Below are positions 15,141-60,097 of a stretch of 64,000 nt of DNA, piece by piece. Each line of letters begins with the position of its first letter. The stretch's first letter is position 1. Made by a program: the position numbers and the translations under genes. The stretch is taken from positions 1,364,001-1,428,000 of the forward strand of contig CP021227.1 in NCBI GenBank assembly GCA_003999685.1. The letters are read 5' to 3'. The notes under the pieces are model-generated. The model was given only the letters and a program-made list of their open reading frames with translations. It was not told the origin of the DNA and searched no databases. Origin of the DNA: Taiwanofungus camphoratus. Lineage: Eukaryota > Basidiomycota > Agaricomycetes > Polyporales > Taiwanofungaceae.

Positions 15141-17991
15141 ATGGTCCCTTGCAACATCCCCAATCCTAGCTCCACTGGCTCTCCATCAGCCACTAGTGAC
15201 TCTCGAGTCACTGGGGTGCCCTCAACCGGCTCATCATCCTCGAGGGTGTCTGGTGGCACACCTTCAGGGTGGTCTGCCCCTTATTTTGTGCCTGATGCAT
15301 GGGAATCTCTTACCCAAGCCCAAGTTGAGGCTATATGATGCTCTCATGAACCCTCCCTTGAGAATGAGAGAGCCCCTGTGTTCTCTCTGCCTCCCCCTGT
15401 AGCTGTGGTGGCCTCAGTGTCATCCCAGTCATTTGTGCCCTCCTCTGAACCAGGGGTGAGTACCCCCCAGTGGGCTATCGGCGATGATCAGCTTATCAAT
15501 TTTTCACAGGAAGAGTCCATGCTTCGTGCCCCAGTCATACTGGAGGCCACAAGATATGTGACAACTTTTAAAGTGCAGGTCTTTCTCAGATCCTGCTTCT
15601 CACTGGATGAGACCCTCAACACCCTGATTTTGGCTGTCAGGGAATCATTGAATCACATCTTGTACATGCTCAACATTGACCATGAGGCCTACTATGGCAT
15701 CATCTGCAAAGATATAAGGAAGTACCATGACACAGCCTATGGGCTCAAGTGGTGGGAAATGGTTCAGTCTGCTCTACAGATCACCACACAAGTGGTGCAA
15801 CTGGTAGGAGTAGAACATCTCATAGATATGGATGAAATTGGTCATTTGACTACTCATGTCTGTAAACTCACCAATATTAAGGCAGAACTTGAGTCCACCA
15901 TTGTTGAACAGAACAAGACCATCAGTGAGCTGTTGAGGGTTTTTATCTCAGTTCTCCTCAAACCCAAAGACCAGTGGTTTGAGAGGGCCCACATAGTTTT
16001 GGGCAATATCGCTGCCTTGACCATCAATAATGCCAGCAAGCTTATACAAGTGATCACCACCAACACCTCCACACTCTGGGCTTTTTCCCAGCATGTGGAG
16101 GGTCTTGCTGCTGTGGCCTCAGGTTTTGCCTTGGCCATGGTGATGCGACCTAGGGAGTCCTGTACTGTGGGGATGAACCTAAAGAGTAGGTCTGATGCAT
16201 CCTGATGAGAAGTGAGAGCTAAAGTGGTGTGGTACCTGTGAAGGATACCAGAGGAAAAGGTAAGTGAGGGGACATGACAGAGAAACTACCTAGACCATGG
16301 TCAGGGGCCTAAAAGTCTAGTGTGTGCAGAAAAGTAAGGGGCCAATGAATCCTGCATGACAGGATCTTGTGCTGAGATGCAGACAGTCCCAGGAAGGTAG
16401 GAGTGTGGTCTTCTAATCCAATGGTAGTGGGCTGGTAGGATGCCAGCCAGGTGCAAAGAAGTCGAAGGAAGCTGATGGCAAACCGATGGTAAATCGAGGA
16501 CCAAAGGATAAACCAAAAACTGATGTCATCGGGAGAGGGGATACTGCTGAGGGCTGCTGGCATAGGAATGGGATGTAGAGCTGGCATAGGTGATAACTGA
16601 TAGACTGAACTGTACGCAACACGTGCCTATGGAGTATAACGAGAGCGGAGGCATGCCAAATGAGAAGGAGGAGGAGGGCTGGTTACTCAGACCGAAGTTA
16701 CTCCAACTTCGAGAATGTAGGACGTAAAGGACGTAGGACTGCTGTGATATACGATATAATATGATGGCTGGCTGATGATAGTAGATATGATGGAGGGGAA
16801 CCTTGTCAGACTGTTGAGAAACCTTAGAGCAGGAGAAGCCCAAATCTGAACTCTAGGGGACAAGTCTGTAGATTCTTTGAGACAAGATGGGAGCGTGTGT
16901 CTTTTCTGGCATCTGGTAGGTACAGGAGACTATATAAGGGGTCCGTGGTGTCAAAGTATCTTATGCAAAATAAAACTGAAGAAACTGAAAACAAACTGAA
17001 AATTGTAAAATCTAGAATCTGATCAGCGTACCATATGAGGAACTAAACTGAAGTAGGACATGAAACAGGAACTCTGAATGTGGTAGAAAGGTTACTGGTG
17101 AATGGCACAGAGTGAGGGATGCTTATCTAAAGATCATTATATGGAAGATGGGCTATCTAACCAGACCTTGAGCGGAACAGAGACCTAGGAGTGCTGAACC
17201 GTCAAGCCGATGCGTAGAGGGTCTAGGCAATACCAAGGGATCATATGAACGTCATGAACAAGAGGCCGAGACTTCGGACTGAGGGACCAAGAACCAGAAC
17301 CGAGGACTGAAGACTGATAATTGAAGGACTGGAGATCGAGGACTGAAAACCGAAGACCGAAGGACTTTTGCTTAGTTTTCCTTGACCAATAAGAAGGACT
17401 TGGAGCGTAAGGGGATGCTAGGACGAGCTGAATGAGTGTATTGCAGAGTATGAGAGACTGCTTTGTGAGATAGAAGCTTCCAAGATGCACTGTAGAACTT
17501 CCGATATCTGAAGTCTGAATAATGATGTTTTGGTGCATTGACTGGGATTCTCAGGTGGCGTTATGATGTATGGACAGTGGGCCTTTGTCCTGATGATCTG
17601 TAGAGTAGTCCAGAGATGCATAGAAAACTGAAAATGGGTGCTTTTGGGGCGCAGAGGCATATTAGACCTATCAACGGCCTCCTTGTCTGCTAAACAGATG
17701 CCTAAGCAGGTGCATGTTCAATCATCATTTAAAGAAGGGTCCACATTTGCCTTTGTGAATAAGGGCAAGAAGTGTGCAGCGCCCCCCTCCCCTTTCAGGA
17801 GCAGGGCTGCCTCCCCTGTTATGAAGAAGGCAGCCACCACAGACATGATTGACCTTACCTTGGATAATAGCCTCAACTGGGACAACATTAGAAGAGCAGC
17901 TGAGATAGCTCAAATTGCCCTCAACATTTCCCTGTCCAACACACTCTGCCTTATGCAGGATCTCGTCACTCTCATCCAACAGTTATACTGA
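15141..17991 (+). pseudogene. 438-codon ORF of unknown function, split by a solo LTR
   Basis: One reading frame runs 15141-16140, is broken by LTR A (16141-17673), and resumes in the same frame at 17674-17991. The join is clean: GCC TTG GCC before the LTR and ACG GCC TCC after it. One in-frame TGA (15336-15338) interrupts it. The N-terminus is Ser/Thr/Pro-rich. The middle (about residues 80-330) is helical with DHEAYYGIICKDIRKYHDTAYG and AHIVLGNIAALTINNASKLI. The C-terminus has DMIDLTLDNSLNWDNIRRAAEIAQIALNIS, where IDLTLD resembles a SUMO-interacting motif. I recognise no family. The setting suggests a gag-like or other transposon gene, but a decayed host gene is possible. A hydrophobic small ORF (18000-18100) follows. 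Confidence 0.5.
16141..17673 (+). mobile_element. Solo LTR, family A
   Basis: 1533 bp beginning TGATGCGACCTAGGG and ending CTATCA. It is flanked by the 4-bp target duplication ATGG (16137-16140) / ACGG (17674-17677), which differ by one transition at the CpG. It contains a TATA box (CTATATAAGGGG, near 16931) and the stem-loop TCCTGCATGACAGGA near 16348, both typical of A/B LTRs. Insertion broke the ORF at 15141-17991. No internal domain is present, so it is a solo LTR. Confidence 0.8.
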
Positions 17992-18160
17992 CAGGGCGAT
18001 GCTCGCACACGTGACCCTCATCCTCATCCTGGTCTTGAGCGTGGCCATGGGGCTGTCCTTTTGGCATCCTGTGGCCCTGGCCCAGCTTGATCCCTGCTGA
18101 CCATTGGCACTTTCATGCCTGTTTGTCCCCCTCTTATGATACAACATACAACTCAACCGG

Positions 18161-21100
18161 TGATACGACCTAGGGGACCCTGGCACCTAGGGAGTGCTCT
18201 GTAACATGGCTAAGAAGTAGTGGGGTGAACTGTGGGGATGTGAGAAGGGGAGCCACAACCTGTATGATATTGGGAGACCTATATGTCTTGTTTTATATAA
18301 GCAAAGAAGTAAGGGGTCAAGGGTCCTGCATGACAGGATCTTGCTCCTATGTGCTAGATGATCTTTAAAATCTTGCGAGGTCCTCTGAAGTGTGCAAAGT
18401 CCTTCGAAGATCTGCAAAGTCCTTTGAAGTTTTGCTAAAGCACACTATCTGACTTCGTAAGCTGTGTAGAGTTAGAGAGCAATAGATCAATGAAATATGG
18501 GTTCAACTAGTTGGCAAAGGATACAAGACTGCTCCAAAGTCTTTAACTAAAGTTAGCTAAGGAGCATAATGCTTCGAAGTTTGTAGAGTGAGGTACGAGA
18601 GATTTGACTAGCGTGGGGGACCTATAAAAGAGGTCAGATGGTTCGTGGAGTCAATACTGGGAGTAGAGATGAGAGAACGAGGTTGCTGAATGTTCTGAAG
18701 TATCGGTTGGCTTCAGGGCGTAGGTTGGAGAGTTCGAGGGTATAGGAGATGTACTATAATCTGAATCGAAGGCTATAGAAGAATTATAGTGATATTGTGG
18801 GACATAGGAATGACACAACGTGAGCCTTTGGGTATAACTAAGGTGGAGGCCCACTGGATAGGTGCTATAGGTAGTGCTGAGAGGTGTGAAGTCATGTTGA
18901 CTTTGTGGATTGTAGTGTGTAGTTCAAGAGGTGTAGGCATAGTTCATAGATATATAGTGAGTGTAGACGTAGTTTATAGACACTGAAGCTGAGCTAGGAT
19001 GGAGACTTTAGGGGCTTAGGACCGTTCCTAAGGCTGCACTCGCAGCACTCTCTGAGATCGGAGCTACAGGGGAACTTGTATTCCAAAGGGAGAAGCATGC
19101 ACTGAGGGGTCTCTCTGTATATGGTAAACTACCACTGACTAAATAGAAGAGAGTGAGGTGAACTATTCTTATGTAAAGTGATCCTTACAAGTCTGAAATG
19201 TGTACTAAAATGCATGGGCTCTGAAGTGAACATGAGGAGGATAGGAACTAAATAGGAACTGAAACAGGAAAACTATATATGGTAGAAAGGTGACCAAGTT
19301 CATCCATGAGGGCAGGATGACTATCTGAGAGCGGTGATACGACCTAGGGGACCCTGGTACCTAGGGAGAGCTCCGCAACGTGGCTGGGGGTAGTGTGATA
19401 ACTGTGAGGGTGTGAGGGTAGGAGCTACAACCTGTATGATACCGGGAAACCTGTATGTCTTGTTTTTGTAAGTAGGGGAGTAAGGGGTCAAGGGTCCTGC
19501 ACAACAGGATCTTGTTCCTAAGTGCTATACTATCCCTAAGGCCTTGCGAGGCCCTCCGAAGTATGCGAAGTTCTTCGAGGTTTTGCGAAGCCCTTCGAAG
19601 TTTTTTTTAGCTAAATCGCGCGAGCTGACTTCGTAGATGCTGCGAAGCCCTTCTGGTTAGAGTTAGCTAAAGGGCGTAAGGGTTTTGGAGTTTGTTAGAG
19701 CGAAGTGGGCGAGGTTTGGCTAGCGTAGGAGACCTGTAGAAGAGGTCGGAGAGTTCGAGGGCGTAGAGAGATGTACTATAGCCTGTAACTAAGGCTATGG
19801 GAGGGTCGTAGGGCTATTCGTAGGACGTAGGGATAACGCAACGTGAGCCTAAGGGTATAACTAAGGCGGAGGCCCACCGGATAGGTGCTATAAAAGGTGC
19901 TGAAGGGTGCGAAGTCACGGCGACTTCGTAGATCGTAGTGCGTAGTTTGGGAAGCGTAGACGTAGTTTGTAGATATATCGCGAGCGTAGACGTAGTTCAA
20001 AGGTACTGAAACGAAGCTGGGGTGGAGACTTAGGGACCTTAGGACCGTTCCTAAGGTTGTACTTGCGGCGCTTTCCTGAGATCGGAGCTACAGGGGAACT
20101 GGTATTCCAAAGAGAGAAGCGTGCACTGAGGGGTCTCCCTCTTACATAGTAAACTACCTCTGACTAAATAGGGGAGCGTGAGGTGAACTAATCTTGCGCG
20201 AAGTGATCCTTACGAGTCCGAAATGTGTACTAAAACGCATGGACTCCGAAGTGAACACGAGGAGGATAGGAACTAATTAGGAACTGAAACAGGGGAACTA
20301 CGAACGGTAGAAAGGTGACCAACTTCATTCACGAGGGCGGGATGACTATCCGAGAGCAGCCATGCGCCGTGATCACCTATCTTAGTGGGCCAAGAGCGCA
20401 CGAAGTTCTTAGCAGCGGGACTTGGCCTAATCGGGGTAGGAGGTGTCCTAACTGGGTGGAGGGCCATATGGATACGCCCTAGGATGACCTTATGGCGTAG
20501 GATCGAGACCCATGGGGGTGCACAAGGCTTCCTAAGTCCAACTTCCGGAACTTCGGACCGTTTCGGAGCCTATCGGAGGTAGCTGCAATCACAAGAGCTA
20601 GGAAAGACTTAGCTAAGACTTCTTAGCTAAGCCCGGGATGAGTGACGTAGTAGATAGGACCTAGATCCAATGGAACAGTATGGGAGGGCCGGCAGTGTCC
20701 GATAGTGGACTTAGCAGGAGTTAGGGACTTCGCGTCTAGCATTCGAAATCTCGTAGCACCTCGTGTGACTTTGCAAGACTTCGTAGGGTGTTAGGAGGGT
20801 TTAGGAAAGAGAGGGGGCGTTAGGAATATTATAGGAACCTATCCCTCCTGTCGTAGGGAGTAGGAGAGTCTTAGAGTGGTCGGTTGGGGGATCAGAAAGC
20901 TCCTAAAATCGCGATTCGAGGCCCAGGAGGCTACAGGACTCATCAGCGGCCATGCGCCGTGATCAACTATCTTAGTGGGCTAAGAGCGTATGAAGTTTCT
21001 AGCAGCAGGACTTGTCCTAATTGAGGTAGGAGCTGTCTTAAATAGGTAGGAGATTATATGGATACACCGTAGAAGGACCTTATAGCAAGGGATTGAGATC

Positions 21101-21534
21101 CAGGGGGTGCACAAGGCTTCCTAAGTCTAGTCTTCAGAACTTCGGACCATTTCAGAGACTATCAGAGGTGCCTGCAGTCACAAAAGATTGGAGAGACTTA
21201 ACTAAGCCTTCTTAGCTAAACCCGGGATGAATGACGTAGTAGCTGGGGCCTGGACCCAATAGAACAAGATAGGAGGGCCAGCAGTGTCCGGTAGTGGACT
21301 TAGCAAGAGTTAGGGACTTTATGGCTAGTGTTTGAAGCTTTATAGCACCTCATGTGACTTCACAGGACTTTGTAGGGTGTTAAAAGGGTTTAGAAGGCAA
21401 AGGAGGTGTTAGGAGCATCATAGGAACCTATTCCACCTGTCTTAGGCTGTAGAAGAGTCATAGGATGGTCTGTGAGGGGATTAGAAAGCTCCTAAAATCA
21501 CAATTTGGAGCTCAGGAGACTACAGGACTCATCA
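18161..21534 (+). mobile_element. Solo LTR, family B (copy B1), interrupted by copy B2
   Basis: The left part is 18161-19334 and the right part 20950-21534. The copy starts TGATACGACC and ends GGACTCATCA, with flanks CCGG (18157-18160) and TCGG (21535-21538), a 4-bp duplication with one C-to-T change. It is clearly older than the copy inside it: many CpG sites of the young copy read TG or CA here (for example GCAAAG for GCGAAG). It contains CCTATAAAAGAGG near 18621 as a possible TATA box and the GTCCTGCA..CAGGATC stem-loop. Confidence 0.85.
19335..20945 (+). mobile_element. Solo LTR, family B (copy B2), young, nested in B1
   Basis: 1611 bp, TGATACGACC..GGACTCATCA, flanked by perfect GCGG duplications (19331-19334, 20946-20949). 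It has a high CpG content. It is collinear without any net gap with the inverted copy B3 at 28880-30490: every paired coordinate sums to 49825, and frames translated from three separate parts are identical. It was therefore inserted recently. It contains runs of CTTCGAAG-type palindromes (near 19555-19600) and the stem-loop GTCCTGCACAACAGGATC. Confidence 0.9.
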
Positions 21535-21552
21535 TCGGCCTTTCTATCCAGG

Positions 21553-22049
21553 AAGAACAATGAGATTTTCGATGATGAAAGGTTTGCCTGATATTCCGAA
21601 AGCCCTGTTGTAGAGAAGTGGTCCCTCATGCTCTAGAATGCATGCCAGCAGTATCCCCTAGCATCCTCTTGATGTTCTATGAGTGTGGACCTTTGGTTGA
21701 GAGCAATTGAGCAAAAACACTTCAGTTTTCGGTCTTCGATTCTGGTTCTTGGTCCCTCAGTCCGGAGTTCCAGTGATAAGACTGGGGAGTTTGAAGCCTT
21801 TAATAGTTTGTATCCAGGAGGAGTTCGAAGCCTTTAGTGGTTTGTACTCACATCCATCTAACAAGTGTTAGGTTTGACTGACACTATAGCTTAATGGTCT
21901 AAAGCATCGGAAGGCCAGTTGAAATGATGCAGGTTCAAATCCTGCTAGTGTCACTCTTTTCTTGGTTCAGCCATTGTCTGTGCTCATCAATGTGTCAGAC
22001 CTACTCTCTAGGTTCATCCCTCCTTCAAGACTCCCTAGGTTGTATCAAC
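21553..22049 (-). mobile_element. Rearranged LTR, family A (inverse), with tRNA-like insert
   Basis: The left ~230 bp matches the start of the inverse LTR A at 55.57-56.88 kb (TGCCAGCAGTATCC, CTTTGGTTGAGAGCA). The last ~75 bp matches its end (GACCTACTC, AGGTTCATCCCTCC, CTAGGTTGTATCA). The middle ~1 kb of the LTR is replaced by the tRNA-like repeat. The right flank is ACAT, which has CA at the centre. Confidence 0.6.
21815..21995 (+). repeat. tRNA-like dispersed repeat, copy 1
   Basis: A 74-nt core (21880-21953) folds like a tRNA: acceptor GACACTA/TAGTGTC pairs 7 of 7, D-stem GCTT/AAGC 4 of 4 and T-stem GCAGG/CCTGC 5 of 5. It has an A-box-like TAGCTTAATGG, a B-box GGTTCAAATCC (21932-21942) and a downstream TTTT. 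The anticodon stem does not pair, so it is not a working tRNA. About 65 bp upstream (GAAGCCTTTAGTGGTTTGT) and 40 bp downstream (TGTCTGTGCTCAT) are shared with the inverse copy at 59035-59205, which marks it as a repeat family. Confidence 0.6.
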
Positions 22050-22272
22050 ATATCAGGAGTAATGTAGTATGAGCAGCATCCTGACTATTTGCATACTATG
22101 AACTATGGAGTGGCTTGTAGAGGAAGTGACTACTGTACTGATGTCACTAGAAAGGCTGAGGCAAAAGAATGTACATAAAATAGACTAAGACAAGACCTAC
22201 AGCTGTAGCATTATTGAGTGTATTGAGTAGCACATCGAAGCAGATTGAGCAATACTGGAGTGGCAAGGCTGG
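22050..22272 (+). repeat. Dispersed repeat G, left part (host of the LTR stack)
   Basis: Matches the reverse complement of about 51950-52125 (ATCAGGAGT, GTACATA, GACTAAGAC, CATCGA, GATTGAG in order). The matching right part resumes at 38001-38145, beyond the whole LTR stack. Repeat G is therefore the pre-insertion substrate of everything from 22273 to 38000. Confidence 0.6.
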
Positions 22273-22761
22273 TGATGAGTCCTATGGCCTTCTGGGCTTC
22301 AAACTGCAATTTTAGAAGCTTTCTAATCCTCTCACAGATCATCCTATGACTCTTTTATAACCTATCACATCTGGGATAGGCTCCTAAGATGTTCCTAATG
22401 CATCCTTTGCATCCTAAACCCTTTTAACACCCTATGAAGTCCTACAAAGTTGCATAAAGTACCACAAAGCTTCTAACTCAAGCTACAAATCTCTAACTCC
22501 TACTAAACCCATTATTGGACACTGTCGACCCTTCTATATTGTCCTATTTGATCTAAGTCTCATCTTCTACATCATCCATCTTGGGCCTAACTAGGAAAGC
22601 TTAGCTAAGTCTTTCCAATCTCTTGTGGCTGTAGGCATCTCTGATAGTCTTCAAAATGGTTTGAAGTGCCAAAGTCTGAACTTAGAAAGCCTTGTGCACC
22701 CTCTGAGTCTCAATCCTATGTCATAAGGTCCTTCTACAACACACCCATATGATCCTCTATC

Positions 22762-23119
22762 TGATACAAGCTGGTATTGATGACCATGAAGTCTTGAACG
22801 TGAGGGCCTGACTACAAGAGATAGTAGCGAGGACTTAAGGACACTGCGTATGTCCTCCTAGGCGAAGTCAATAAGAGTCGAGTGAGTACTCAGGTACGAA
22901 GTGAGAGGTCACAAGATACGAGTATAAGATTGCTAGTGGTAACTAGCTACTTGGTAACCAGATTGAACTTAAGGTCTGATCTACAAAGTACAGGGCCTTA
23001 TATACGTATTCTACTCTGCGCACGGACCATGGCATGTGATCTAAGAAGCAGCACGAGTAAGTGTAATTAAGGCAATATGAGTCATCGAGTCATATTAGCA
23101 ATCAGTAAACGTAAGACAA
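22762..23119 (-). repeat. LTR C, 3' LTR remnant of element C
   Basis: 358 bp from TGATACAAGCTGG (outer edge) to GTAAGACAA, where B5 begins. Compared with the 5' LTR (32318-32722), it carries the same TATATA-containing promoter block and AGATTGAACTTA, one base off the 12-nt self-priming sequence. The remaining ~190 bp of the LTR are missing. Confidence 0.8.
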
Positions 23120-26100
23120 TGATGAGTCCTGTAGCCTTCTGGGCCCCAAATCGCGATTTTAGGAGCTTTCTAATCCCCTAACAGACCATCCTATGACTCT
23201 TCTACAGCCTACGACAGGTGGGATAGGTTCCTATAATGTTCCTAACACCTCCTTTATTTTCTAAACCCTTCTAACACCCTACGAAGTCCTGCGAAGTTGC
23301 ATGAGATGCTACAAGGTTTCAAACGCTAGCCACAAAGTCCCTAACTCTTGCTAAGTCCACTACCGAACACTGCTGGCCCTCCTATCTTGTCCTATTGGGT
23401 CCAGGCCCCAGCTACTACATCATTCATCCTGGGTTTAGCTAAGAAGTCTTAGCTAAGTCTCTCCTAGCATTTGTGATTACAGCCACCCCCGATAGGCTCT
23501 GAAATGGTCCAAAGTTCTAAGGCTGGACTTAGGAAGCCTTACACACCCCCTGGGTCTCGATTCTATGCCATAAGGTCCTTCTATGGTGCATTCATATGAT
23601 CCCCTATCCAATTAGAACACCTCCTACCCTGATTAGGCCAAGTTCCGCTGCTAGAAACTTCATATGCTCTTAGCCCACTAAAACAGTTGATCACAGTGCA
23701 TGACTGCTCTTGGATAGTCATCCCGCTAATACGACCTAGGGGACCCTGGTACCTAGGGAGTGCTCCGCAACATGGCTGTGGGGTAGTGTGATAACTGTGA
23801 GGATGTGAGGGTAGGAGCTACAACCTGTATGATACCGGGAAACCTGTATATCTTGTTTTTTGTAAGTGGGGGAGTAAGGGGTCAAGGGTCCTGCACAACA
23901 GGATCTTGTTTCTAAGTGCTATACGATCCCTAAGGCCTTGCGAGGCCCTCCGAAGTACGCGAAGTCCTTCAAGATTCTGCGAAGTCCTTTGAAGTTTTTA
24001 GCTAAATCGCACGAGCTGACTTCGTAGGCTGTATAGAGTTAGGGAGCAATAAACCAATGGACTATAATTTCTACTAAGCGGCAGAGGGTACGAGACTGCT
24101 GCGAAGTCCTTTTAGCTAGAGTTAGCTAAAGGGCGTAAGGCTTAGAGGTTTGTTAGAGTGAGGTGGGCGAGGTTTGGCTAGCGTAGGAGACTTGTAGGAG
24201 AGGTCAGATGGTTTGGAGAGCTAATACTTGGAATAGGAATGGGAGAACAAGGTTGCTGGAAGCTCTGAAGTGTCTGATGACTTCGAGGTGTAGGTCGGAG
24301 AGTTCGAGGGCGTAGAGGGAGGTGCTATAGCCTGAAATGAAGGCTATGGGAGAGTCATAGGGTTATTCGTAGGACGTAGAAATGACGCAACGTGAGCCTA
24401 AAGGTATAACTAAGGTGGAGGCCCACCAGATAGATGCTATAAGAGGTGCTGAAGGGCGCGAAGTCACGGCGACTTCGTAGATCGTAGTGCGTAGCTCGGG
24501 AAGCGTAGATGTGGTTTATAGATATATCGCGAGCGTAGACGTAGTTCAAAGGTACTGAAACGGAGCTGGGGTGGAGACTTAGGGGCCTTAGGACCGTTCC
24601 TAAGGTTGTACTCACGACACTTTTCTGAGATCAGAGGTACAGGGGAACTTGTATTCCAAAGAGAGAAGCGTGCACTGAGGGGTCTCTCTCGTACATAGTA
24701 AACTACCTCTGACTAAATAGGGGAGCGTGAGGTGAGCTATTCTTGCGCGAAGTGATCCTTACGAGTCTGAAATGTGTACTAAAGCGCATGGACTCCGAAG
24801 TGAACACGAGGAGGATAGGAACTAAATAGGAACTGAAACAGGGGAACTACGTATGGTGGAAAGGTGACCAAGTTCATTCACGAGGGCAGGATGACTATCC
24901 AAGAGCAGCCATGTGCCGTGATCACCTATCTTAGTGGGCTAAGAGCGCACGAAGTTCTTAGCAGCGGGACTTGGCCTAATCGGGGTAGGAGGTGCCCTAA
25001 CTGGGTGGAGGGCCATATGGGTACGCCCTAGGATGACCTTATGGCATAGGATCGAGATCCATGGGGGTGCACAAGGCTTCCTAAGTCCAACTTCCAGAAC
25101 TTCGAACCGTTTTGGAGCCTATCGGAGGTAGCTGCAATCACAAGAGCTAGGAGAGACTTAGCTAAGACTTCTTAGCTAAGTTCAGGATGAGTGACGTAGT
25201 AGATAGGACCTAGATCCAATGGAACAGTATGGGAGGGCCGGCAGTGTCCGATAGTGGACTTAGCAGGAGTTAGGGACTTCGCGTCTAGCATTCGAAACCT
25301 CGTAGCACCTCGTGTGACTTCGCAAGACTTCGTAGGGTGTTAGGAGGGTTTAGGAAGGAGAGGGGGCGTTAGGAATATTATAGGAACCTATTCCTCCTGT
25401 CGTAGGCTGTAGGAGAGTCTTAGAGTGGTCGGTTGGGGGATTAGAAAGCTCCTAAAATCGCGATTCGGGGCCCAGGAGGCTACGAGACTCATCACCGCCC
25501 TCATGGATGGACTTGGTCACCTTTCTACCGTACGTAGTTCCCCTGTTTCAGTTCCTATTTAGTTCCTACCCTCCTTATGTGCACTTCAGAGCCTATACGC
25601 TTTAGTACACATTTCAGACTTGTAAGGATCACTTCACACAAGAATAGTTCACCTCACGCTCCCCTATTTAGTCAGAGGTAGTTTACTATGTACCAGAGAG
25701 ACCCCTCAGTGCACACTTTTCTCTTTGGAATACAAGTTCCCCTGTAGTTCCGATCTCAGAGAAGTGCCACGAGTACAACTTTAGGAACGGTCCTAAGCCC
25801 CTAAGTCTCCACCCCAGCTCTGTTTCAGTATCTTTAAACTACATCTACGCTCACAATATATCTACGAACCACGTCTACGCTTCTTGCACCACGCACTACA
25901 ATTCACAAAGTCGCCATGACTTTGCACTCTTCAGTGCATCTCATAGCACCTATCCGGTGGGCCTCCATCTTAGTTATACCCTTAGGCTCACGTTGTGTTA
26001 TCCCTACATCCTATGAATAGCCCTACAACTCTACTGTAGCCTTCATTTCAGGTTATAGTACATCTCCCTATACCTTCAAACTCCCCGATCTACGCCTCGA

Positions 26101-26652: not shown

Positions 26653-28760
26653 CTGCATGGGTGCCAATTGCTGTTGTCATCCTTCTGCCAGAGGACAGCT
26701 CTCGTGGTGAACTTTGAAGCATCTGTTTTCAATGTGAACAGTTTCTCTGGGTCAGGCATCTGTGAAACCAGTTGTTACAGGAAAGCTTTCTTTAAAGCCT
26801 CGAAAGCTTCCTGCTGTTCATCGTCCCAGTGCCATTTGACGTTTTTGCATGTAAGCGAGACCAGAGGTTGAGCCAGATGCAAGAACCAATGAATGAACCA
26901 GTGGTAAAAATTCCCAAATCCGATGAACAATCTGACTTCTCTGAGGTTTTTGGGTACCGGCCAGTTTTTGATTCCAGCTATCTTGATGGGGTCCATGGTG
27001 AGCTGTCTGGGTTTGATAATCATGCCCAGGAATTTGACTTCTTGCACATTGAATTTGCACTTTTCCGGTTTGAGATAAAGGTTGTTATCTCGAAGCTGCT
27101 CGATAACCTGTTGTGTTTGCTTCTTATGCTCCTCCGGATCTGTGGAGTAAATAAGGATGTCGTCCATATAGATCGCTAACCATCTTTCCTTGAGCATATT
27201 CACAAAGACTGTGTTCATCATCCGTTGGAACATTGCCGGTGAGTTGCACATCCCGAAAAACATTACCAGGGGTTCATAAAATGAGGAGGGTCCTTCTCCC
27301 GCTGCTGGAACGCTGAAAGCTGCCTTCCATTTGTCACCTTCCTTAATGCGAAGGTTGTTGTATCCTTGATGAAGGTCCATTTTAGTGAAGATCGTGGTGT
27401 TGTTGAGGCATTTCAGAAGCTCCATAACAAGGAAAAGAGGGTATTTGTCCTTAATGGTACCCTCGTTGAGTTCTCTATAGTCCTGGCATGGTCAGTATCC
27501 GCTGTCCTTCTTATCCATGAAGAAGAATGGACTAGCGAGTGACGATTTGGATGGTCAGATGTACCCTTTTTCCACATTTTCCTCAAGGAACTTGTCCAGC
27601 TCAGCTCGCTGATCATGGTTAAGGGAGTACATCATCTGTTTGAAGTCTTTAAAATCTGGCTTGAGATTGATCTCGTGATTGAAGTCTGAATGCTGAGGAA
27701 GTTGCACTGCTTTGGTCTTATTGAACACTGGGAGGAGGTCATGAAGGTATTCAGGGACAAGTTTTATAACTGGTTTTTCCTCTTGCTTGGTGTGTTCCTT
27801 GATTGCGAGTTCTGTAGACGTAGTGAGTCGACCGATGTCATGTTTGACCTGTCAGATAAAACTATTGTCAAGACGACGATAGGCTCTGTCAAGAGGGTAC
27901 TTTGTTTCCTCAAGAGGTGCATCTCGATATGCTGGGTGCGAGTCTCGTCCATATGTTGTGATCTGATCGTCTCCCTCAATGAATGCTATGACTAGTTCAT
28001 CATCATCAATCATTTCCATCGCCTGATCCAGGGTGATACCGTTAAGTGATTGTTCTATCAAAGGTGCAGCTGGTGAGTCACATCATGCTGTCTGCTTAGG
28101 CATGTCCGTCGTTGGTAAGACAGGAGATATGGTGTCGATCACCTCGAAGTCTCCCTCATCTTCTACCTTTTTGATTATGGGCTGCCATTGTTGTTGTAGG
28201 CATTTTTCTCGTTCAGCGAGAAATGCTGCTACCTGTGGATATGGGGGTGCTGACCAGTCTATCTCGTAATCTAGCACAGGATCGAGGGCTTCTTCCTTTT
28301 TCCATTTGGCTAGTTTCTTCAGCTCCAGTCACACGATCTGTTGCGTGATGATCCCCTTTTTCCACTTTTGAGATTCTTCCAGGGTCATGCAGTGCTTTAG
28401 TTCCACCTGACCCCTCTTCCAGTCGATACTGGGGTTTTCAAGTTTGAGCCAGGTATGTCCGAAGATGATGTCTTCATTCCCTATACTGGCTATGTATGCT
28501 TTGACAAATTGGGGCTTGTTCCTGATTTTGTATGGAAGCAAGGCTCACCTGGTTATGAGTGCTTGCTTGTTGGCAGTGCCGTCCACGTTGAACACTGGTA
28601 TGGGGCGCAGCAGCGCCTCTGTCCGTAACTTATGTTCCTTAACAAATTGTGGATGCATAAATATTCCTGATGCGCCACTGTCGATAAAGGCGTGTGCTCT
28701 GACGTCTTTTTGTCCCACAGTAATTGGAATGTGATGGGCTCTGTCATTCTGGACTACAAG
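26653..28760 (-). pseudogene. Element C pol remnant: protease and reverse transcriptase
   Basis: The protease region has the active-site triad DSG (28682-28674) in FIDSGASGIF, followed by HPQFVKEHKL and a downstream IIFGHTWL motif. The reverse transcriptase shows [31 protein letters not shown] and the catalytic YMDD (27170-27159), then the connection domain (FLGMII..HWHWDDEQQEAFEALKKAFL-like end). Several in-frame stops are present. The RNase H start (TDASKFTT) is cut after about 20 residues at 26653 by the B5 LTR. The family is chromovirus-like Ty3/gypsy. The product is inactive. Confidence 0.85.
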
Positions 28761-28879
28761 TACAACACGAAACAGTGAAATAGATATGGGCAGTGGTTGC
28801 GTCGACTCACCCTGCCTCTTTAAAAATCCTCTGTTCCTAACTCCTCAAACATCACCCTCTTCTCATTTGATGAGAGCGT

Positions 28880-30490
28880 TGATGAGTCCTGTAGCCTCCT
28901 GGGCCTCGAATCGCGATTTTAGGAGCTTTCTGATCCCCCAACCGACCACTCTAAGACTCTCCTACTCCCTACGACAGGAGGGATAGGTTCCTATAATATT
29001 CCTAACGCCCCCTCTCTTTCCTAAACCCTCCTAACACCCTACGAAGTCTTGCGAAGTCACACGAGGTGCTACGAGATTTCGAATGCTAGACGCGAAGTCC
29101 CTAACTCCTGCTAAGTCCACTATCGGACACTGCCGGCCCTCCCATACTGTTCCATTGGATCTAGGTCCTATCTACTACGTCACTCATCCCGGGCTTAGCT
29201 AAGAAGTCTTAGCTAAGTCTTTCCTAGCTCTTGTGATTGCAGCTACCTCCGATAGGCTCCGAAACGGTCCGAAGTTCCGGAAGTTGGACTTAGGAAGCCT
29301 TGTGCACCCCCATGGGTCTCGATCCTACGCCATAAGGTCATCCTAGGGCGTATCCATATGGCCCTCCACCCAGTTAGGACACCTCCTACCCCGATTAGGC
29401 CAAGTCCCGCTGCTAAGAACTTCGTGCGCTCTTGGCCCACTAAGATAGGTGATCACGGCGCATGGCTGCTCTCGGATAGTCATCCCGCCCTCGTGAATGA
29501 AGTTGGTCACCTTTCTACCGTTCGTAGTTCCCCTGTTTCAGTTCCTAATTAGTTCCTATCCTCCTCGTGTTCACTTCGGAGTCCATGCGTTTTAGTACAC
29601 ATTTCGGACTCGTAAGGATCACTTCGCGCAAGATTAGTTCACCTCACGCTCCCCTATTTAGTCAGAGGTAGTTTACTATGTAAGAGGGAGACCCCTCAGT
29701 GCACGCTTCTCTCTTTGGAATACCAGTTCCCCTGTAGCTCCGATCTCAGGAAAGCGCCGCAAGTACAACCTTAGGAACGGTCCTAAGGTCCCTAAGTCTC
29801 CACCCCAGCTTCGTTTCAGTACCTTTGAACTACGTCTACGCTCGCGATATATCTACAAACTACGTCTACGCTTCCCAAACTACGCACTACGATCTACGAA
29901 GTCGCCGTGACTTCGCACCCTTCAGCACCTTTTATAGCACCTATCCGGTGGGCCTCCGCCTTAGTTATACCCTTAGGCTCACGTTGCGTTATCCCTACGT
30001 CCTACGAATAGCCCTACGACCCTCCCATAGCCTTAGTTACAGGCTATAGTACATCTCTCTACGCCCTCGAACTCTCCGACCTCTTCTACAGGTCTCCTAC
30101 GCTAGCCAAACCTCGCCCACTTCGCTCTAACAAACTCCAAAACCCTTACGCCCTTTAGCTAACTCTAACCAGAAGGGCTTCGCAGCATCTACGAAGTCAG
30201 CTCGCGCGATTTAGCTAAAAAAAACTTCGAAGGGCTTCGCAAAACCTCGAAGAACTTCGCATACTTCGGAGGGCCTCGCAAGGCCTTAGGGATAGTATAG
30301 CACTTAGGAACAAGATCCTGTTGTGCAGGACCCTTGACCCCTTACTCCCCTACTTACAAAAACAAGACATACAGGTTTCCCGGTATCATACAGGTTGTAG
30401 CTCCTACCCTCACACCCTCACAGTTATCACACCACCCCCAGCCACGTTGCGGAGCTCTCCCTAGGTACCAGGGTCCCCTAGGTCGTATCA
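28880..30490 (-). mobile_element. Solo LTR, family B (copy B3, inverse), young
   Basis: 1611 bp, flanked by perfect GCGT duplications (28876-28879, 30491-30494). It sits between gag and protease of element C. It is a near-identical inverted counterpart of B2 (19335-20945), with no net indel. Both copies are solo LTRs with their own duplications, so they are independent insertions of the same recent source. Confidence 0.9.
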
Positions 30491-30524
30491 GCGTCTTGAT
30501 GTACAAGTGGAAATCCATGAGAGG

Positions 30525-32161
30525 TCATGCCTCAGGTTCCTTTGAGGCACTTCTTTGGTCCAATTTGGCCATCTTCTTTTGACACTTGCACACCGAGTGT
30601 CCCCCTTTGTGGCAATAGAAACACAGACAATTGTCCATGTGGTATTTCCTTTCCTTCTCATTCAGGCTGCATCTGTCCTCCCATTTCTTGATGAATGGCG
30701 TGGGACATGGAGTAGTGAGTGCGTCCACTTCCATGGGTTCACCATAGTCGACGTTGGCAGTGGTGGAGAGGGTTTGGTCGATCCCTCTGTAGATGGCGTC
30801 GAGATAAAGGACATTGGCATACTATTTTTCCATGGAGTTGGGTCGCTCTGTGTTAGTGCGGCCTGCAAGTGTTGTGTAGATCTGGCAGTCCAGACCTTGG
30901 ATGAAGATTGCCTGCAACATGGGGTAATTATTCTCAGTGCGTTGGCCATTGAGGCCCATGAAGGCATTCTTTAACTTGGCCTTCTCTGCCAGGAGTTGGA
31001 ACCTTTCCACGTACATCTTTGTACTGACCCTGGTCTTCTTATTTAGTTGCTTGGCCAGCAACTCCATTAGCACTTGGTGAGCTCTCTGAACTCTTTCGTG
31101 CTCAGGGAATGCGAGTTACAAGCTCGCTTTGAATACGTCCCAACTAGCGTAGGGAGCATGCCCTCCTGCGGCCCGTTCATAAAACATATCACGCCAGATA
31201 CGTGCATCCTGCCCTCCTTTCATAAGAGCGACTGTGTAAGCGATCTTTGCATCATCGCTTAACCTCTGATTGTTGGTGGCAATTAGATAATGCTCCATCC
31301 ACTGGAGGAAACACTTCAGATCCTCTCCTTGCCCGGTGAATGGATCCTGTTACCGGAGGGTTCACCCTGGTAATGCTGCAGAAGCTTAGAGCGGTGTGCA
31401 GCGAGGGATCAAGGAGGAGCAGCAGTGACGACGAGTCACGATCCTCAGTAGTCTTCAACTACAAGCCCTATATAGTCGCGATAGTCTTTACGGGCTTCTT
31501 GGAGTGCGAGAAGATGTGTAAAGAAAAGCGTGTATTGGTACTAATGTGTAGTACACTTCGGAATAGATGAACAAAGAGAATATGACTAAGGAAACCTCCA
31601 GCAGAGGGTCCCTCCTTTATACTGTCACTGTCGACCCCCAGGTATACTAAGCAGTCCCCCAGAGACAGCATAAGGCAAGAGAAGTCAGCGGTCCGAAAGT
31701 ACATAACTACCATGGCATAAGCGGGGACGGTCAGCCCGTCAGTCAATCTGGGTAAGTAATGCATGGAAGGGATGTCGCGCGTCCATGGTGTGACAAACAA
31801 AGGAAAAAGAAAAAATGAACAAGTCTCTAGTCCTATCCGTCGGTAACAGATCCGGTGCAGGAATGTCGAGCTTAAGGGGTCGACTCCTCTGTTGCTGTTG
31901 CGTCAAAAGGTGCGCTATGAGCACCTCAAGCTCCACCCTGGTCATTGTTGTGATAGTAGCCATCGTGGTAGGGGTAGTAGGTGTTACGGGTGTGGTCAGA
32001 AGTGATGAGATGGTGGGAGTGATTGGTGTGGTTATCAATGGTGTCGAAGGTATCAATGTGAGAAAGAAACCAGCTGGGTCTCTTCCGTCTGGCGGAGGGT
32101 TATGTCTGAAATAGGAGGCTAACTTCTCCTGTACTCGTTGAGCTGAAATTGTCCCTGCCAA
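30525..32161 (-). pseudogene. Element C gag, interrupted by a solo LTR D
   Basis: The N-terminal part (32161-31849: MAGTISAQRVQEKLASYF, then a Pro/Thr/Ile-rich region and a helical stretch LEVLIAHLLTQQQQ) is separated from the rest by LTR D. After it comes a capsid-like part (FTGQGEDLKCFLQWMEHYL, DDAKIAYTVALMKGG, YERAAGGHAPYASWDVFKA, QGLDCQIYTTLAGR). The last part is a nucleocapsid with one CCHC knuckle, CFYCHKGGHSVCKC (about 30625-30584), of CX2CX4HX4C type. In-frame stops occur after FKASL and NSMEK. This is the classic gag order for Ty3/gypsy. It is not functional. Confidence 0.8.
31348..31848 (-). mobile_element. Solo LTR, family D
   Basis: 501 bp, TGTTACCGGAGGG..CGGTAACA, flanked by a perfect 5-bp duplication GATCC (31343-31347, 31849-31853). 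It closely matches the 3' LTR of element D at 59555-60056 and lies in the same orientation. It is inserted in the gag of element C. Confidence 0.92.
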
Positions 32162-32315: not shown

Positions 32316-32722
32316 TTTGATACAAGCTGATATTGATGACCATGAAGCCTTGAACTTGAGGGCCTGACTACAAGAGATAGTAGTGAGGACTTAAGGACAC
32401 TGCGTATGTCCTCCCGGACAAAGTCGATAAGAGTCGAGCGAGTACTCAGGTACGAAGTGAGAGGTCGCAAGATATGAGTATAAGATTGCTAGTGGTAACT
32501 AGCTACTTGGTAATCAGATCGAACTTAAGGTTCGACCTACAAAGTACAGGGCCTTATATACATATTCTACTCTGCACACGGACCATAGCATGTGATCTAA
32601 GAAGCAGCACGAGTAAGCATAAATAAGGCGATATGAGTCATCAGACCATATTAGCAATTGGTAAATGTAAGATGAAATGTGTGAGTGGGGCCCAATATGA
32701 GTCAGTGTCTATGAGTAACCGG

Positions 32723-35700: not shown

Positions 35701-36001
35701 ACATAGTAGATAGGACCTAGATCCAATAGAACAGTATGGGAGGGCCGGCAGTGTCTGATAGTGGACTTAGCAGGAGTTAGGGACTTCGCAGCTAGCATTC
35801 GAAACCTCGTAGCACCTTGTGTGACTTCGCAGGACTCCGTAGGGTGTTAGAAGGGTTTAGGAAGGAAAGGAGGCGTTAGGAATATTATAGGAACCTATCC
35901 CACCTGTTGTAGGCTGTAGAAGAGTCTTAGAATGGTCGGTTGGGTGATTAAAAAGCTTCTAAAATTGCGATTTGGGGCCCAGGAGACTACGGGACTCATC
36001 A
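32723..36001 (+). mobile_element. LTR, family B (copy B6), in LTR C, interrupted by B7
   Basis: Left part 32723-33844 and right part 35457-36001, flanked by perfect CCGG duplications (32719-32722, 36002-36005). It starts TGATACAACC and ends GGGACTCATCA. It includes the extra segment of the long subfamily near 33020-33110. Confidence 0.88.
33845..35452 (+). mobile_element. LTR, family B (copy B7), nested in B6
   Basis: 1608 bp, TGATACGACC..GGACTTATCA, flanked by perfect GCGT duplications (33841-33844, 35453-35456). It belongs to the short subfamily with B2 and B3, and is CpG-rich and young. Confidence 0.9.
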
Positions 36002-36991
36002 CCGGGGCCCGTACTGTAAGCAGCTATGAGTCAAGAAGCTGCGCAAGAAAGCTGGGCCTACCCGAGGCCCGTTCTAGAAGTGAAAGGTCACGGGACCGAT
36101 CCAAGGTCTGACTGATAAGATACGAGAGAAAAGAAATTGTATCACTATCCATTTAGAATGCCTCCTATCCTGATTTGGTCAAGTCCCACTGGTAGAAACT
36201 TCATACACCTTTAGCACACCATGATAGCTGATCACTGTGCATGCCTGCTCTCTGATAATCATCCTGCTCTTATGTTTGATCTTGGAGACATTTCTACCAT
36301 ATATAGTTTCTCTGTTTCAGTACCTAATTAGTTCCTATCTCCTCATGATCACTTCAGAGTCCATGCACATTTAGTACACATTTCAAACTTGTAGAGACCA
36401 CTTCATATAAGATATTTCACCTCACCTTCTCCTATTTAGCCAGATGTATTCTACTATGTATGACAGAGACCCCTTAGTATATGCTATTCCCCCACTTGAG
36501 AATACAAGCCCCTCTGCAGCTACGATCTCATAGCACATTGAGAATAGAAGCTTTAGGAATCTTTTAAGCTTCTAAGTCTCTCATCTATATTCTGTCTCAG
36601 CTCAGATAACTATGACTACACTTGTGATAAATTCTACATCTATGCCTATGCCTTCGAACTATGTCCTACGCCCTATGAAGTCACTGTGACTTTGTACACT
36701 ACACATATTCACCCAGTTCCCCTATCTAGTGTGCCTCTGCCTTAGTTATACCCCAAAGGCTCACATTGCATCAATTCTACATTCTCCTACATTCTATTCC
36801 TTGCTCTACAATCTCTGATCCCATTTCTATCTATCTGCTATGCTTCTAGATCCTTTGAAACACACACTATGCTTAGCAGCTCCATTCTCATCCCTTGTAA
36901 CCTCACATCCTTCTACAACAGTCTATACATTTCTATATCACCTTCCAGCCCCTTTATATACTCTCTATCTCTTTCCTATTTCTCCTATCTC

Positions 36992-37529: not shown

Positions 37530-38000
37530 ATCTCCTTCTACAATCATCTAAAGTCCATCACAGTTTAGCTGACTCTGATCAGCTTGTAAGGCTTTAGAAA
37601 GTCCATTCGTCCATTTCATTACCCTTTGTGCCCCATCTCACTTCCTTATGCATTATTCCTCACCTCCTATCTCATCTCTACACTTCTATCTCCCTTTCAA
37701 ATCCTTCTACAGGCATCACCCCACATTGCAGAACTTTAAAGCATTTCTGACCACATTGCAAGACTTTGTAGATCTTCAAAGGACTTTGTACCTTTGAGGG
37801 ACCCTTAGCATGCAGGAGTAAGTTCCTGAAAAGCAAGACTCTTGACCTTTTACCATCTTATACAACAAAAACAAGACATACAGGCTACTTGGTATCACAC
37901 AGGCAGTGCTCCCCTCTTCTACAGCTATTCACCACATCCCCCTCACTGATCAGCCATTTTGGAGCACTATCTAGATACCAGGGTTACCTAGGTCACATCA

Positions 38001-38145
38001 ACATGTCAAGGACATCAGAGGATTCCACAGGGAAGTATGGATCATGGTGGCTGCATTGAGTGATGTTGAAGGTGTGAGTGAGACTGAAGGGTCATGCTAG
38101 AGCACTCCACAGGGCCTAGAAGGGCCTGGCACCTATCAACAGTTT
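38001..38145 (+). repeat. Dispersed repeat G, right part
   Basis: Matches the reverse complement of about 51680-51770 (GGCCTAGAAGGGCCTG, GAGTGAGA, and GTTGAAGG/GTGTCAAAG-type blocks). Together with 22050-22272 it rebuilds the site into which B9 was inserted. Confidence 0.5.
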
Positions 38146-42200: not shown

Positions 42201-42257
42201 GAGGAGTGTGTTTAGGTGCAAATACTGTCTCGAACACAAGCCACGCAGGTCAGACCC

Positions 42258-46889: not shown

Positions 46890-47150
46890 CACTGTCTAGC
46901 CTCTGTGGAATACACTTAATACGCCATCAGTCTATGCAGACTGGAGTTACGGTCAAGGCCTGGTCTATAGAGTAGATTAGACTCATGCCCGGACGGAATT
47001 GATCGTTCGATGTGGCTAGATAGCTGAGCCCCAATTTTGAGTAGGAGTTGTTGTATCGACGACTGCATTCCGCGAACGCCTCATCCGGCCGTCCGCAGCA
47101 ATTTCTGGCCAAAAGTCCTCCCACTCTCTACATCCTCGTACGGATCCACT

Positions 47151-51154: not shown

Positions 51155-51633
51155 ATCACAACCAGTGTTGTGCTTGACCGGGTCATGACCGGGTCAAGTC
51201 AAAAGGTCAAGGGTCAAGGCGTGACTTGCGCACGGGATCGAAAAAGGGCTTAGATGCCTAAATATTATCAAGTTCCCCTGCACGGATTTCGCGAATTTTG
51301 GCATCAACACAGTAGCGGCAGCAGGCTTCCCAATGAGATATGTCATTTCTATATCTTTGGCTGCCTTTGTAGAAGTGATACCAGACCAAGGTTTGGCATT
51401 GCTGTTAAGAACATAATATAGAGATAACTACTGCCTTCCGGGCTAATTTACTATGTTTTTCTTCGAAATTTCTAAATATCTTCAACTTGACCTCACACGT
51501 GATGTGTTAGCAACGAGTAGGTCACGGCTTGACTTTCTGACCCTCATTTGACCCGGGTCATGACCCCGTCAAGGTCATGACCCCAGTCAAAAGTCAAGGG
51601 GTCAAACATGACCTTTACAACACTGATCACAAC
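51155..51633. mobile_element. Non-autonomous hAT element (MITE) with 8-bp target duplication
   Basis: The 463-bp element 51163-51625 begins CAGTGTTGT and ends ACAACACTG, a perfect 9-bp terminal inverted repeat. It is flanked by a perfect 8-bp duplication ATCACAAC (51155-51162, 51626-51633). Eight bp and a CAGTG terminus are hAT hallmarks. Near both ends it carries repeated GGTCAAG and the palindrome GGTCATGACC, likely transposase-binding subterminal repeats. There is no coding capacity. Confidence 0.85.
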
Positions 51634-51679
51634 CAAATGAGTGAAGTATGATGTGATAATCATACTGCTGAGTTTCAGA

Positions 51680-52130
51680 CGGTGATAGGCGTCAGGCCCT
51701 TCTAGGCCCCATGGAGCGCTCTCACTCAACCCTAGGACCTTAGTCATGGCTTTGACACCACTCAACGTGTCCGATGCCACCCAAAAGGCCACCGTGGGAC
51801 TCTCTGATAGCTTTGAATCATGTCACAGCCACTTCACCAATTCTGGTCCGACGTTCTGGCGTGCAGCTCTCTCTATGCACAATGCACCACACACAGTCAC
51901 CACTCAAAGTTCTCACATGTGATCAGTCACACCATCCCAATATCGCTCAATCAGTTTTGATGTGCCACTCGATGCGCTCGATAACACTGTGACCACGTCT
52001 TAGTCTATGTACGTTCCTTTGTCTCAGCCTTACTAGTGACGTCAGTATAGTAGCCACTCCCTCTACGAGCTACTCTGTAGTACACAAGTAGTTAGGATGC
52101 CACTCGTACTACAACACTCCTGATGCGCCT
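51680..52130 (-). repeat. Dispersed repeat G, uninterrupted copy
   Basis: The reverse complement aligns first with 22050-22272 and then with 38001-38145. It gives the form of the sequence before the LTR stack was inserted. It is richer in CpG than the other copy, and no ORF is evident. Confidence 0.55.
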
Positions 52131-52269
52131 TACATTATAGTAAAAGTAGTATAAACGTGATGTACGACGTCTCGGACCAACACAGAAGTTTTCCCCCATT
52201 CTGCAGAGCTCAAGAAAAGCACCTTCAATCCAAGTCTTCTACTGCGTTCTACTGTGTCTTTCCGTCTTT

Positions 52270-52460
52270 GCCTACATTTGAAGAGTTGCGTCTACAATCC
52301 GCCTTTTACAGTCTCTTGAAGGGTTGCGTCTTGTCCGTCTTTGACTGTCGTCGAAGGGTTGCGCTTAGTCTTATATCTGCCTTCGAGTCACATCGAAGGG
52401 TTGCATTCACAAAAACATCTCTAACTCAAGTCCGCCTTCTACAGTAATTGAAGGGCTGCA
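52270..52460. repeat. Degenerate minisatellite (TCGAAGGGTTGCG units)
   Basis: Five imperfect units occur at about 52278, 52317, 52351, 52393 and 52447, 34-54 bp apart. Each centres on T(C/T)GAAGGGTTGCG, often preceded by a GTCCGTCTTTGACTG-type stretch. Confidence 0.5.
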
Positions 52461-52578
52461 TATCAGCTAAGTCCTCCCATTTAGCCTCCCCTTAGTACAA
52501 TACAGCATAGTAGCACATTGAAGCTACGTTGAGCAGTCGTGACACACATCATAGGTCATTGAAAACCTTCGTAGACGT

Positions 52579-54343
52579 TGATGAGTCCCGTAGCCTCCTG
52601 GCCCCCGAATCGCGATTTTAGGAGCTTTCTAATCCCCCAACCGACCACTCTAAGACTCTCCTACAGCCTACGACAGGAGGGATAGGTTCCTATAATATTC
52701 CTAACGCCCCCTCTCCTTCCTAAACCCTCCTAACACCCTACGAAGTCTTGCGAAGTCACACGAGGTGCTACGAGATTTCGAATGCTAGACGCGAAGTCCC
52801 TAACTCCTGCTAAGTCCACTATCGGACACTGCCGGCCCTCCCATACTGTTCCATTGGATCTAGGTCCTATCTACTACGTCACTCATCCCGGGCTTAGCTA
52901 AGAAGTCTTAGCTAAGTCTCTCCTAGCTCTTGTGATTGCAGCTACCTCCGATAGGCTCCGAAACGGTCCGAAGTTCCGGAAGTTGGACTTAGGAAGCCTT
53001 GTGCACCCCCATGGGTCTCGATCCTATGCCATAAGGTCATCCTAGGACGTACCCATATGACCCTCCACCCATTTAGGACACCTCCTGCCCCGATTAGGCC
53101 AAGTCCCGCTGCTAAGGACTTCGTGCGCTCTTAGCCCACTAAGATAGGTGATCACGGCGCATGGCTGCTCTCGGATAGTCATCCCGCCCTCGTGAATGAA
53201 GTTTGTCACCTTTCTACCGTTCGTAGTTCCCCTGTTTCAGTTCCTAATTAGTTCCTATCCCCCTCGTGTTCACTTCGGAGTCCATGCGTTTTAGTACACA
53301 TTTCGGACTCGTAAGGATCGCTTCGCGCAAGATTAGTTCACCTCACGCTCTCCTATTTAGTCAGAGGTAGTTTACTATGTAAAAGAGAGACCCCTCAGTG
53401 TACGCTTCTCTCTTTGGAATACCAGTTCCCCTGTAGCTCCGATCTCAGGAAAGCGCCGCGAGTACAACCTTAGGAACGGTCCCAAGGTCCCTAAGTCTCC
53501 ACCCCAGCTCCGTTTCAGTACCTTTGAACTACGTCTACGCTCGCGATATATCTACGAACTACGTCTACGCTTCCCGAACTACGCACTACGATCTACGAAG
53601 TCGCCGTGACTTCGTGCCCTTCAGCACCTCTTATAGCACCTATCCGGTGGGCCTCCGCCTTAGTTATACCCTTAGGCTCACGTTGCGTCATCCCTACGTC
53701 CTACGAATAACCCTACGACTCCCCTATAGCCTTCATTACAGGCTATAGTACATCTCTCTACGCCCTCGAACTCTCCGACCCACACCTCGACGTCATCAGA
53801 CACTTCAGAGCTTCCAGCAACCTCGTTCCCTCATTCCTATTCCAAGTATTAGCTCTCCGAACCATCCGACCTCTCCTACAAGTCTCCTACGCCAGCCAAA
53901 CCTCGCCCACCTCGCTCTAACAAACCTCTAAGCCTTATACCCTTTAGCTAACTCTAGCTAAAAGGACTTCGCAGCAGTCTCGTACCCTCTGCCGCTTAGT
54001 AGAAATTATAGTCCATTGGCTTATTGCTCCCTAACTCTATACAGCCTACGAAGTCAGCTCGCGTGATTTAGCTAAAACTTCGAAGGACTTCGCAAAACCT
54101 CGAAGAACTTCGCATACTTCGGAGGGCCTCGCAAGGCCTTAGGGATAGTATAGCACTTAGGAACAAGATCCTGTTGTGCAGGACCCTTGACCCCTTACTC
54201 CCCTACTTAGAAAAACAAGACATACAGGTTTCCCGGTATCATACAGGTTGTAGCTCCTACCCTCACACCCTCACAGTTATCACACTACCCCCAGCCACGT
54301 TGCGGAGCACTCCCTAGGTACCAGGGTCCCCTAAGTCGTATCA
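52579..54343 (-). mobile_element. Solo LTR, family B (copy B8, inverse), long subfamily
   Basis: 1765 bp, TGATGAGTCCCG..AAGTCGTATCA, flanked by perfect ACGT duplications (52575-52578, 54344-54347). It keeps the extra segment of the long subfamily (near 53780-54050). It is young and CpG-rich, and lies 15 kb from the main stack in a different background, so its duplication is independent evidence for the target pattern. Confidence 0.9.
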
Positions 54344-54347
54344 ACGT

Positions 54348-60075: not shown

Positions 60076-60097
60076 GGTGTCGCCCCGACACCTACCT

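Follow-up and report, generated by a model that had tools for sequence, protein, structure and literature searches.

CpG-centred integration of a Ty3/Gypsy LTR element in the basidiomycete Taiwanofungus camphoratus

Why should the short target duplications that flank a group of fungal long terminal repeat (LTR) elements carry CG at their centre? The question is raised by a 64-kb stretch of the Taiwanofungus camphoratus genome (C8:1364001-1428000), referred to here as the window, in which two LTR families, A and B, had been predicted to integrate at CpG. The fungus, a medicinal bracket species, belongs to the Polyporales, and the paper on its genome describes a burst-like expansion of Gypsy LTR elements (PMC8865532). 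The assembly comprises 33.2 Mb in 15 contigs, and coordinates given below without a contig label are positions within the window. The answer that we favor is that B and a third family, E, very probably belong to one basidiomycete Ty3/Gypsy clade, the integrase of which would insert the element with a 4-bp stagger that has CpG at its centre (V-CG-B) and would itself read the central CpG.

All eight readable duplications of A and B in the window are 4 bp long and CG-centred, as originally claimed. On the minus strand are found a solo copy of LTR A (element 16141-17673, within 16137..17677; ATGG at 16137-16140 and ACGG at 17674-17677), B1 (18161-21534, within 18157..21538; flanks CCGG/TCGG), B2, which is nested in B1 and splits it (19335-20945, within 19331..20949; GCGG/GCGG, with uninterrupted relatives of the target in existence), B4 (23727-25494, within 23723..25498; CCGC/CCGC), B6 (32723-36001, within 32719..36005; CCGG/CCGG), and B3, which is nested in B6 and likewise splits it (33845-35452, within 33841..35456; GCGT/GCGT). 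On the plus strand are B7 (28880-30490, within 28876..30494; GCGT/GCGT), which shares 99.8% identity with B2, and B8 (52579-54343, within 52575..54347; ACGT/ACGT). B8 splits a plus-strand copy of LTR E in which it is nested (51683-54474, within 51679..54478; ACGG at 51679-51682 and ATGG at 54475-54478).

Unpaired flanks in the window, all read on the plus strand, have TG or CA at the same central positions, again as claimed. These are ACAT (22048..22051) at an LTR A end at 22047, CTGG (22269..22272), ACAA (23116..23119), and CTGC (26653..26656) at decayed LTR B ends at 22273, 23120, and 26652, respectively, ACAT (38001..38004) at a strongly decayed LTR B end at 38000, and TTGC (56885-56888) at a second LTR A copy (about 55325-56884, within 55321..56888, plus strand), the other flank of which, CCGT (55321-55324), is also unpaired. 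An LTR E end at 38138 is followed by unpaired ACAG (38139..38142, plus strand; CTGT on the minus strand).

The CG enrichment over background that the original prediction demanded is found throughout the genome. The 3' ends of B were located by their exact 19-base terminus with any base but G at -12, a condition that drops inner junctions and leaves the duplication untouched. The resulting 194 outer flanks are N-CG-N in 178 cases, N-TG-N in 10, and N-CA-N in 6, with no other class. At the 5' end, the 100 flanks listed out of 221 matches have CG in 83, CA in 12, and TG in 5. CG makes up 4.4-5.9% of the window, and against a background of 0.059 the 178/194 count has a log10 p of about -197 when sites are treated as independent; some flanks duplicate another (5 among 100 listed), and the ends of a given insertion are not independent of each other. 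Elsewhere in the same flanks, CG is found only 0-8 times at any position per 95 or 98 unique flanks. The outer bases are also biased. T opens 17 of the 168 CG-centred duplications and A closes 4, together 21/336 where 28.5% is expected (p = 7e-25), and the target consensus of B is V-CG-B, with T disfavored first and A disfavored last.

One part of the original prediction is not supported, namely that CpG richness draws these LTRs into each other's copies. With the duplication excluded, CpG in the 100-bp flanks of 60 B loci stands at 4.5%, which is the background level, and no regional preference for CpG-rich DNA is seen. Sequences from a small transposon library resemble 33 of the 60 flanks, which is taken as accumulation in repeat-rich DNA and does not imply that repeats are targeted.

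LTR B, which is about 1.6-1.8 kb long and runs from TGATGAG to CGTATCA in the coding direction, is part of a 12.1-kb Ty3/Gypsy element. The two LTRs of a full-length C5 copy do not differ (0/1607), and CCGC stands on both sides of it. The open reading frames (ORFs) of a full-length copy on this contig are, in order, gag-like, protease, RNase H, and integrase, with an extra opposite-strand ORF downstream of pol. Pfam recognizes the protease (PF13650), RNase H (PF17919/PF17917), and the integrase H2C2 domain (PF17921); a Pfam search of the reverse transcriptase (RT) piece gave no match, and with RT assigned by eye from its YIDD motif the domain order is the protease, RT, RNase H, integrase of Ty3/Gypsy elements. 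The LTRs are of the paired TG...CA type, with a polypurine tract and a predicted primer binding site at inner junctions AATAGGGAGGAGG and TTTCTGGAGCCCACCGCGAG. In full-length B these junctions read ...GGAGGAGG followed by TGATGAG and CGTATCA followed by TTTCTGGAGCC. Neither has CG at the duplication positions, and the LTR ends are therefore correctly placed.

The opposite-strand ORF is found downstream of pol in both B (L039:2514-3707, plus strand) and E (L101:523-1056, minus strand), and by eye has a Zn2Cys6-like cysteine pattern, CxxC...CxxCx6C. A Pfam scan of this ORF found no Zn-cluster match, and the B piece has one homologue among the sequences found. A stop lies right before it in both families and may mark an intron. 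Elsewhere, at C10:625736-668849, five B LTRs stand in a row with 10.47-kb spacing, forming a tandem array whose elements have LTRs in common, presumably as a result of recombination.

The two ends of individual insertions can be compared. Far ends were read at 60 retrieved loci out of 100 listed 3'-end B sites. Outer flanks are identical at 21 loci, all N-CG-N, and differ at 15, all with CG, TG, or CA centres; 16 far ends are inner junctions, and 8 loci have no recognizable far end. A second pairing, made from the end listings with 89/100 and 99/100 places used and overlapping the 60-locus set, gave 38 pairs of ends, spaced as in solo or full-length copies. Identical flanks are present in 24 of these (23 CG, 1 TG), including 4 full-length copies.

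The state of the target before insertion can also be seen. Flanks were joined for 44 B insertions (37 loci and 7 window copies) and searched for in the sequence examined, and at 27 of them an uninterrupted relative runs across the junction, with L041 giving a partial match only. In the best two rows per site, which were inspected, the four target bases occur once. The site in the best relative is CG-centred in 16/27 cases and TG- or CA-centred in the other 11. At a locus with TTGT/TCGT flanks the uninterrupted relative has TCGT, pointing to one-sided decay after insertion.

The duplicated CpG most likely decays to TG or CA through CpG methylation and deamination. The ratio of observed to expected CpG is 0.87-0.93 in young B LTRs of the window and 0.23-0.56 in old B and A copies, in which TG and CA rise. 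The T. camphoratus genome encodes C5-methylase domains, and CpG-directed C-to-T decay of transposons has been described in basidiomycetes (PMC4352252). The decayed centres are not symmetrical, as CA exceeds TG in A (17 vs 8) and among the B 5' flanks that were listed (12 vs 5), with the opposite at the B 3' end (6 vs 10).

Families A and E follow the same target rule as B. The evidence for A, which is older and more decayed than B, consists of its LTR flanks, and 38 of 39 fit CG or its decay products (CG 13, CA 17, TG 8, AG 1). Family E has an LTR of about 980 bp (TGATAGG...ACA), and the E LTR of an element on C11 matches window positions 51683-52578, the LTR that is split by B8. The integrases of E and B are 75% identical and have the loop YNSRANG in common, and the inner junction after the E LTR is TTTCTGGAGCCCACCGCGAG, as in B. 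Twelve of 13 E outer flanks fit (CG 8, CA 2, TG 2, CT 1), and the pairs are ACGC/ACGC, GCGT/GCGT, and ACGG/ATGG, with TCGT/TCGT around the full-length C11 copy. This copy (L103:86; L101:1910-2891) is inserted in a B LTR end as CCTAGG-TCGT-ATCA, with TCGT duplicated. The C11 element (L101, L102) was also considered as a member of family A, since 240 bp nearby match LTR A, but these belong to a separate fragment and the LTR is that of E.

Family D serves as the control. Like B it is an LTR element of the same genome, but it is chromovirus-like Gypsy, makes 5-bp duplications, and has no CG rule. The window copy (31348-31848, within 31343..31853, no strand assigned) is flanked by GATCC/GATCC, as predicted, and genome-wide CG is found at the corresponding position in 0/35 cases and 0-3 times at others. 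A further family D LTR lies in window 59554-63977 with adjoining ORFs that, by eye, contain chromodomain-like stretches as well as RT and an integrase whose loop is YHPQSDG. Taken together, the counts, the pairing of duplications, the uninterrupted sites, and the control family establish, as firmly as sequence alone allows, that A and B integrate at CpG across the genome, and they support the TG and CA centres as products of CpG decay.

What, then, reads the CpG? The best PDB match of the B integrase is that of prototype foamy virus (PFV), with E = 1.2e-16. Asp138, Asp196, and Glu231 of B align with the catalytic positions of PFV. The loop before the Glu is YNSRANG in B and YHPQSSG in PFV, with Arg225 (in a 469-residue piece) aligned with PFV Gln215. 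Of 1214 homologues, the best 120 were scanned with a pattern for the loop, which is matched in 117 and unmatched in 3, and these 117 contain YNSRANG in 112 cases, Lys or Gln in place of Arg in 4, and Leu in place of Ser in 1; the named homologues belong to Heterobasidion irregulare and Mycena sanguinolenta. In a search for relatives in viral contigs, 16 stretches matched a pattern and none was confirmed. It had been suggested that the integrase might carry a CpG- or methyl-CpG-binding module, yet Pfam recognizes neither an MBD or CXXC domain nor a chromodomain in the B integrase, and 23 homologues likewise give no chromodomain match at E up to 1. The C-terminal chromodomain that marks chromovirus integrases is thus not recognized in B. 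A GPY/F-like stretch can be seen by eye as RYLSPV in B and RYLGPL in E, and SH3_Tf2-1 is weakly matched in 8/24 sequences. A study of murine leukaemia virus (MLV) holds the first C-terminal-domain loop chiefly responsible for reading target bases at the cut (PMC4477651), and for this reason that loop is as good a candidate reader as YNSRANG.

The integrase itself most likely reads the central CpG, because the rule has base-pair precision, is shared by B and its sister E, and comes with no CpG enrichment around the sites. The integrase complex would impose a sharp bend on the middle of the target site, as retroviruses with 4-bp duplications are described to do, their integrases favoring flexible pyrimidine-purine (YR) steps; in B and E, added base contacts may narrow the step to CG. 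The element ends would then be joined across the CpG-centred 4-bp stagger, and after insertion the duplicated CpG would turn into TG or CA.

Several observations weigh against this account. The flanks are unmatched in 14/38 end pairs, including 3/7 at full-length distance. A one-sided mutation appears to explain CCGG/CTGG as well as L062, L070, L084, and L096, and an uninterrupted relative spans the site at L062, L084, and L096; the others are read as recombination between copies or chance-paired neighbors, and the unmatched duplications suggest that recombination between B copies is frequent. An identical non-CG pair, ATGT/ATGT, occurs on C4, and another locus has GTGC/CTGC, which would allow for occasional, rare direct integration at TG. 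The far end of L100 (ATGT/TTGG) was probably misread, as its near-duplicate at C4:2532190 has ATGT/ATGT. Family A has one exceptional flank, TAGC, and family E another, ACTG; the E sample is small and opportunistic, and three further stretches aimed at E ends contained none. Searches with an exact terminus favor young copies, the 3' terminus itself containing CpG, and all of the copies come from a single species, T. camphoratus. Finally, the base contacts of PFV integrase are reported as Arg329 and Ala188, not Gln215 (PMC4422553), and it is by sequence alignment that the candidate CpG readers were chosen, namely Arg225 in YNSRANG and, in the C-terminal SH3-like domain, the first loop.

Of the other explanations, the one that fares best, though it is unlikely, is that a CpG- or methyl-CpG-binding protein of the host or the element tethers the integration complex. 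Tethering is a described route by which LTR elements and retroviruses choose regions (PMC5408687, PMC8632968), and the Zn2Cys6-like cysteines of the opposite-strand ORF could point the same way. A tether would fix a region, however, rather than one exact base pair in the middle of the cut, and both the background level of CpG within 100 bp and the Pfam result for the integrase speak against it. The opposite-strand ORF is itself an unlikely source of the specificity, because CGG is the usual Zn2Cys6 target triplet and many of the targets (ACGT, GCGT, ACGC) lack it.

It is less probable still that a flexible YR step is all that is required, with the CG excess arising from composition or from the survival of copies. 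Every B centre seen is indeed a YR step, and the outer-base preferences match those of PFV and MLV, but TA is found in 0/194 flanks (p about 1e-17), CG accounts for 178/194 where it makes up 24% of YR steps (p about 4e-91), and identical pairs number 23 with CG against 1 with TG. As the sole cause, a general YR rule is refuted by these counts. The suggestion that CG belongs to the element ends, or that the boundaries are misplaced, has nothing but the constancy of CG in its favor and can be dismissed, as the inner junctions lack it, the outer bases vary and pair as duplications, and uninterrupted relatives hold the four bases once.

With integrase as the preferred reader, a broader proposal can be put forward tentatively. 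The whole basidiomycete Gypsy clade with the YNSRANG loop might read bare CpG through its own integrase and may sense CpG methylation, either following or avoiding methylated DNA.

The window has further features. A tRNA-Gly-like gene (21880-21954, plus strand; Rfam 53.6 bits) lies near a decayed LTR A end and has a weaker relative at 59074-59145 on the minus strand. The 180 bp around both are 77% alike, and a short element derived from a tRNA is a possible source. The host ORF at 47428-50055 matches a T. camphoratus protein with 100% identity, the alignment covering 99% of the ORF's length.

The target rule set by the CG centre is far tighter than LTR elements normally show; with CpG decay allowed, a dinucleotide rule fits 194/194 3' flanks of a fungal element that has hundreds of LTR ends. 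Family B offers a natural system for how an integrase reads the single central step of its target, and a CpG-centred integrase could serve as a laboratory tool. Integration is also tied to a dinucleotide whose methylation is related to transposon silencing, and methylation could affect where the element goes.

How does this compare with known systems? The original prediction knew of no fungal LTR family described as CpG-targeting, and none was found among the papers searched in an open-licence PMC library; the part that needs amending is that CG-containing 4-bp targets are already known, as in Ginger1 and ZAM. Gypsy-type integrases can thus have CG-containing targets, and these two are partial precedents. 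Ginger1 uses a Gypsy-type integrase as its transposase and, like B, makes CG-centred 4-bp duplications (CCGG 75%, CCGT/ACGG 24%; PMC2836005). It is a DNA transposon with terminal inverted repeats and without LTRs or RT, whereas B has LTRs and pol, and its outer bases are limited to CCGG/CCGT, compared with V-CG-B in B.

Sequence-specific integration is given in one review as exclusive to errantiviruses and their derivatives (PMC5408687). Errantiviruses, including ZAM, are LTR elements with palindromic sequence-specific targets (PMC2527525, PMC5408687), and B also has such a 4-bp target, although such a target is not enough to define the group. The integrase of ZAM itself binds the target DNA, CGCGCg (PMC2527525), which is a longer motif than that read by B, and if CGCG is the 4-bp site then its centre would be GC. 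Errantivirus integrases are moreover said to lack the GPY/F motif (PMC5408687), whereas a similar stretch is present in B and E. We class family B as a Ty3/Gypsy element that shows a novel variation in target specificity. PFV and MLV resemble it in their 4-bp stagger, YR centre, and avoidance of T first and A last (PMC4422553, PMC4477651), but their preference at the centre is weak: the mean rise in YR use across four viruses is 63%, and it is not limited to CG (PMC4422553).

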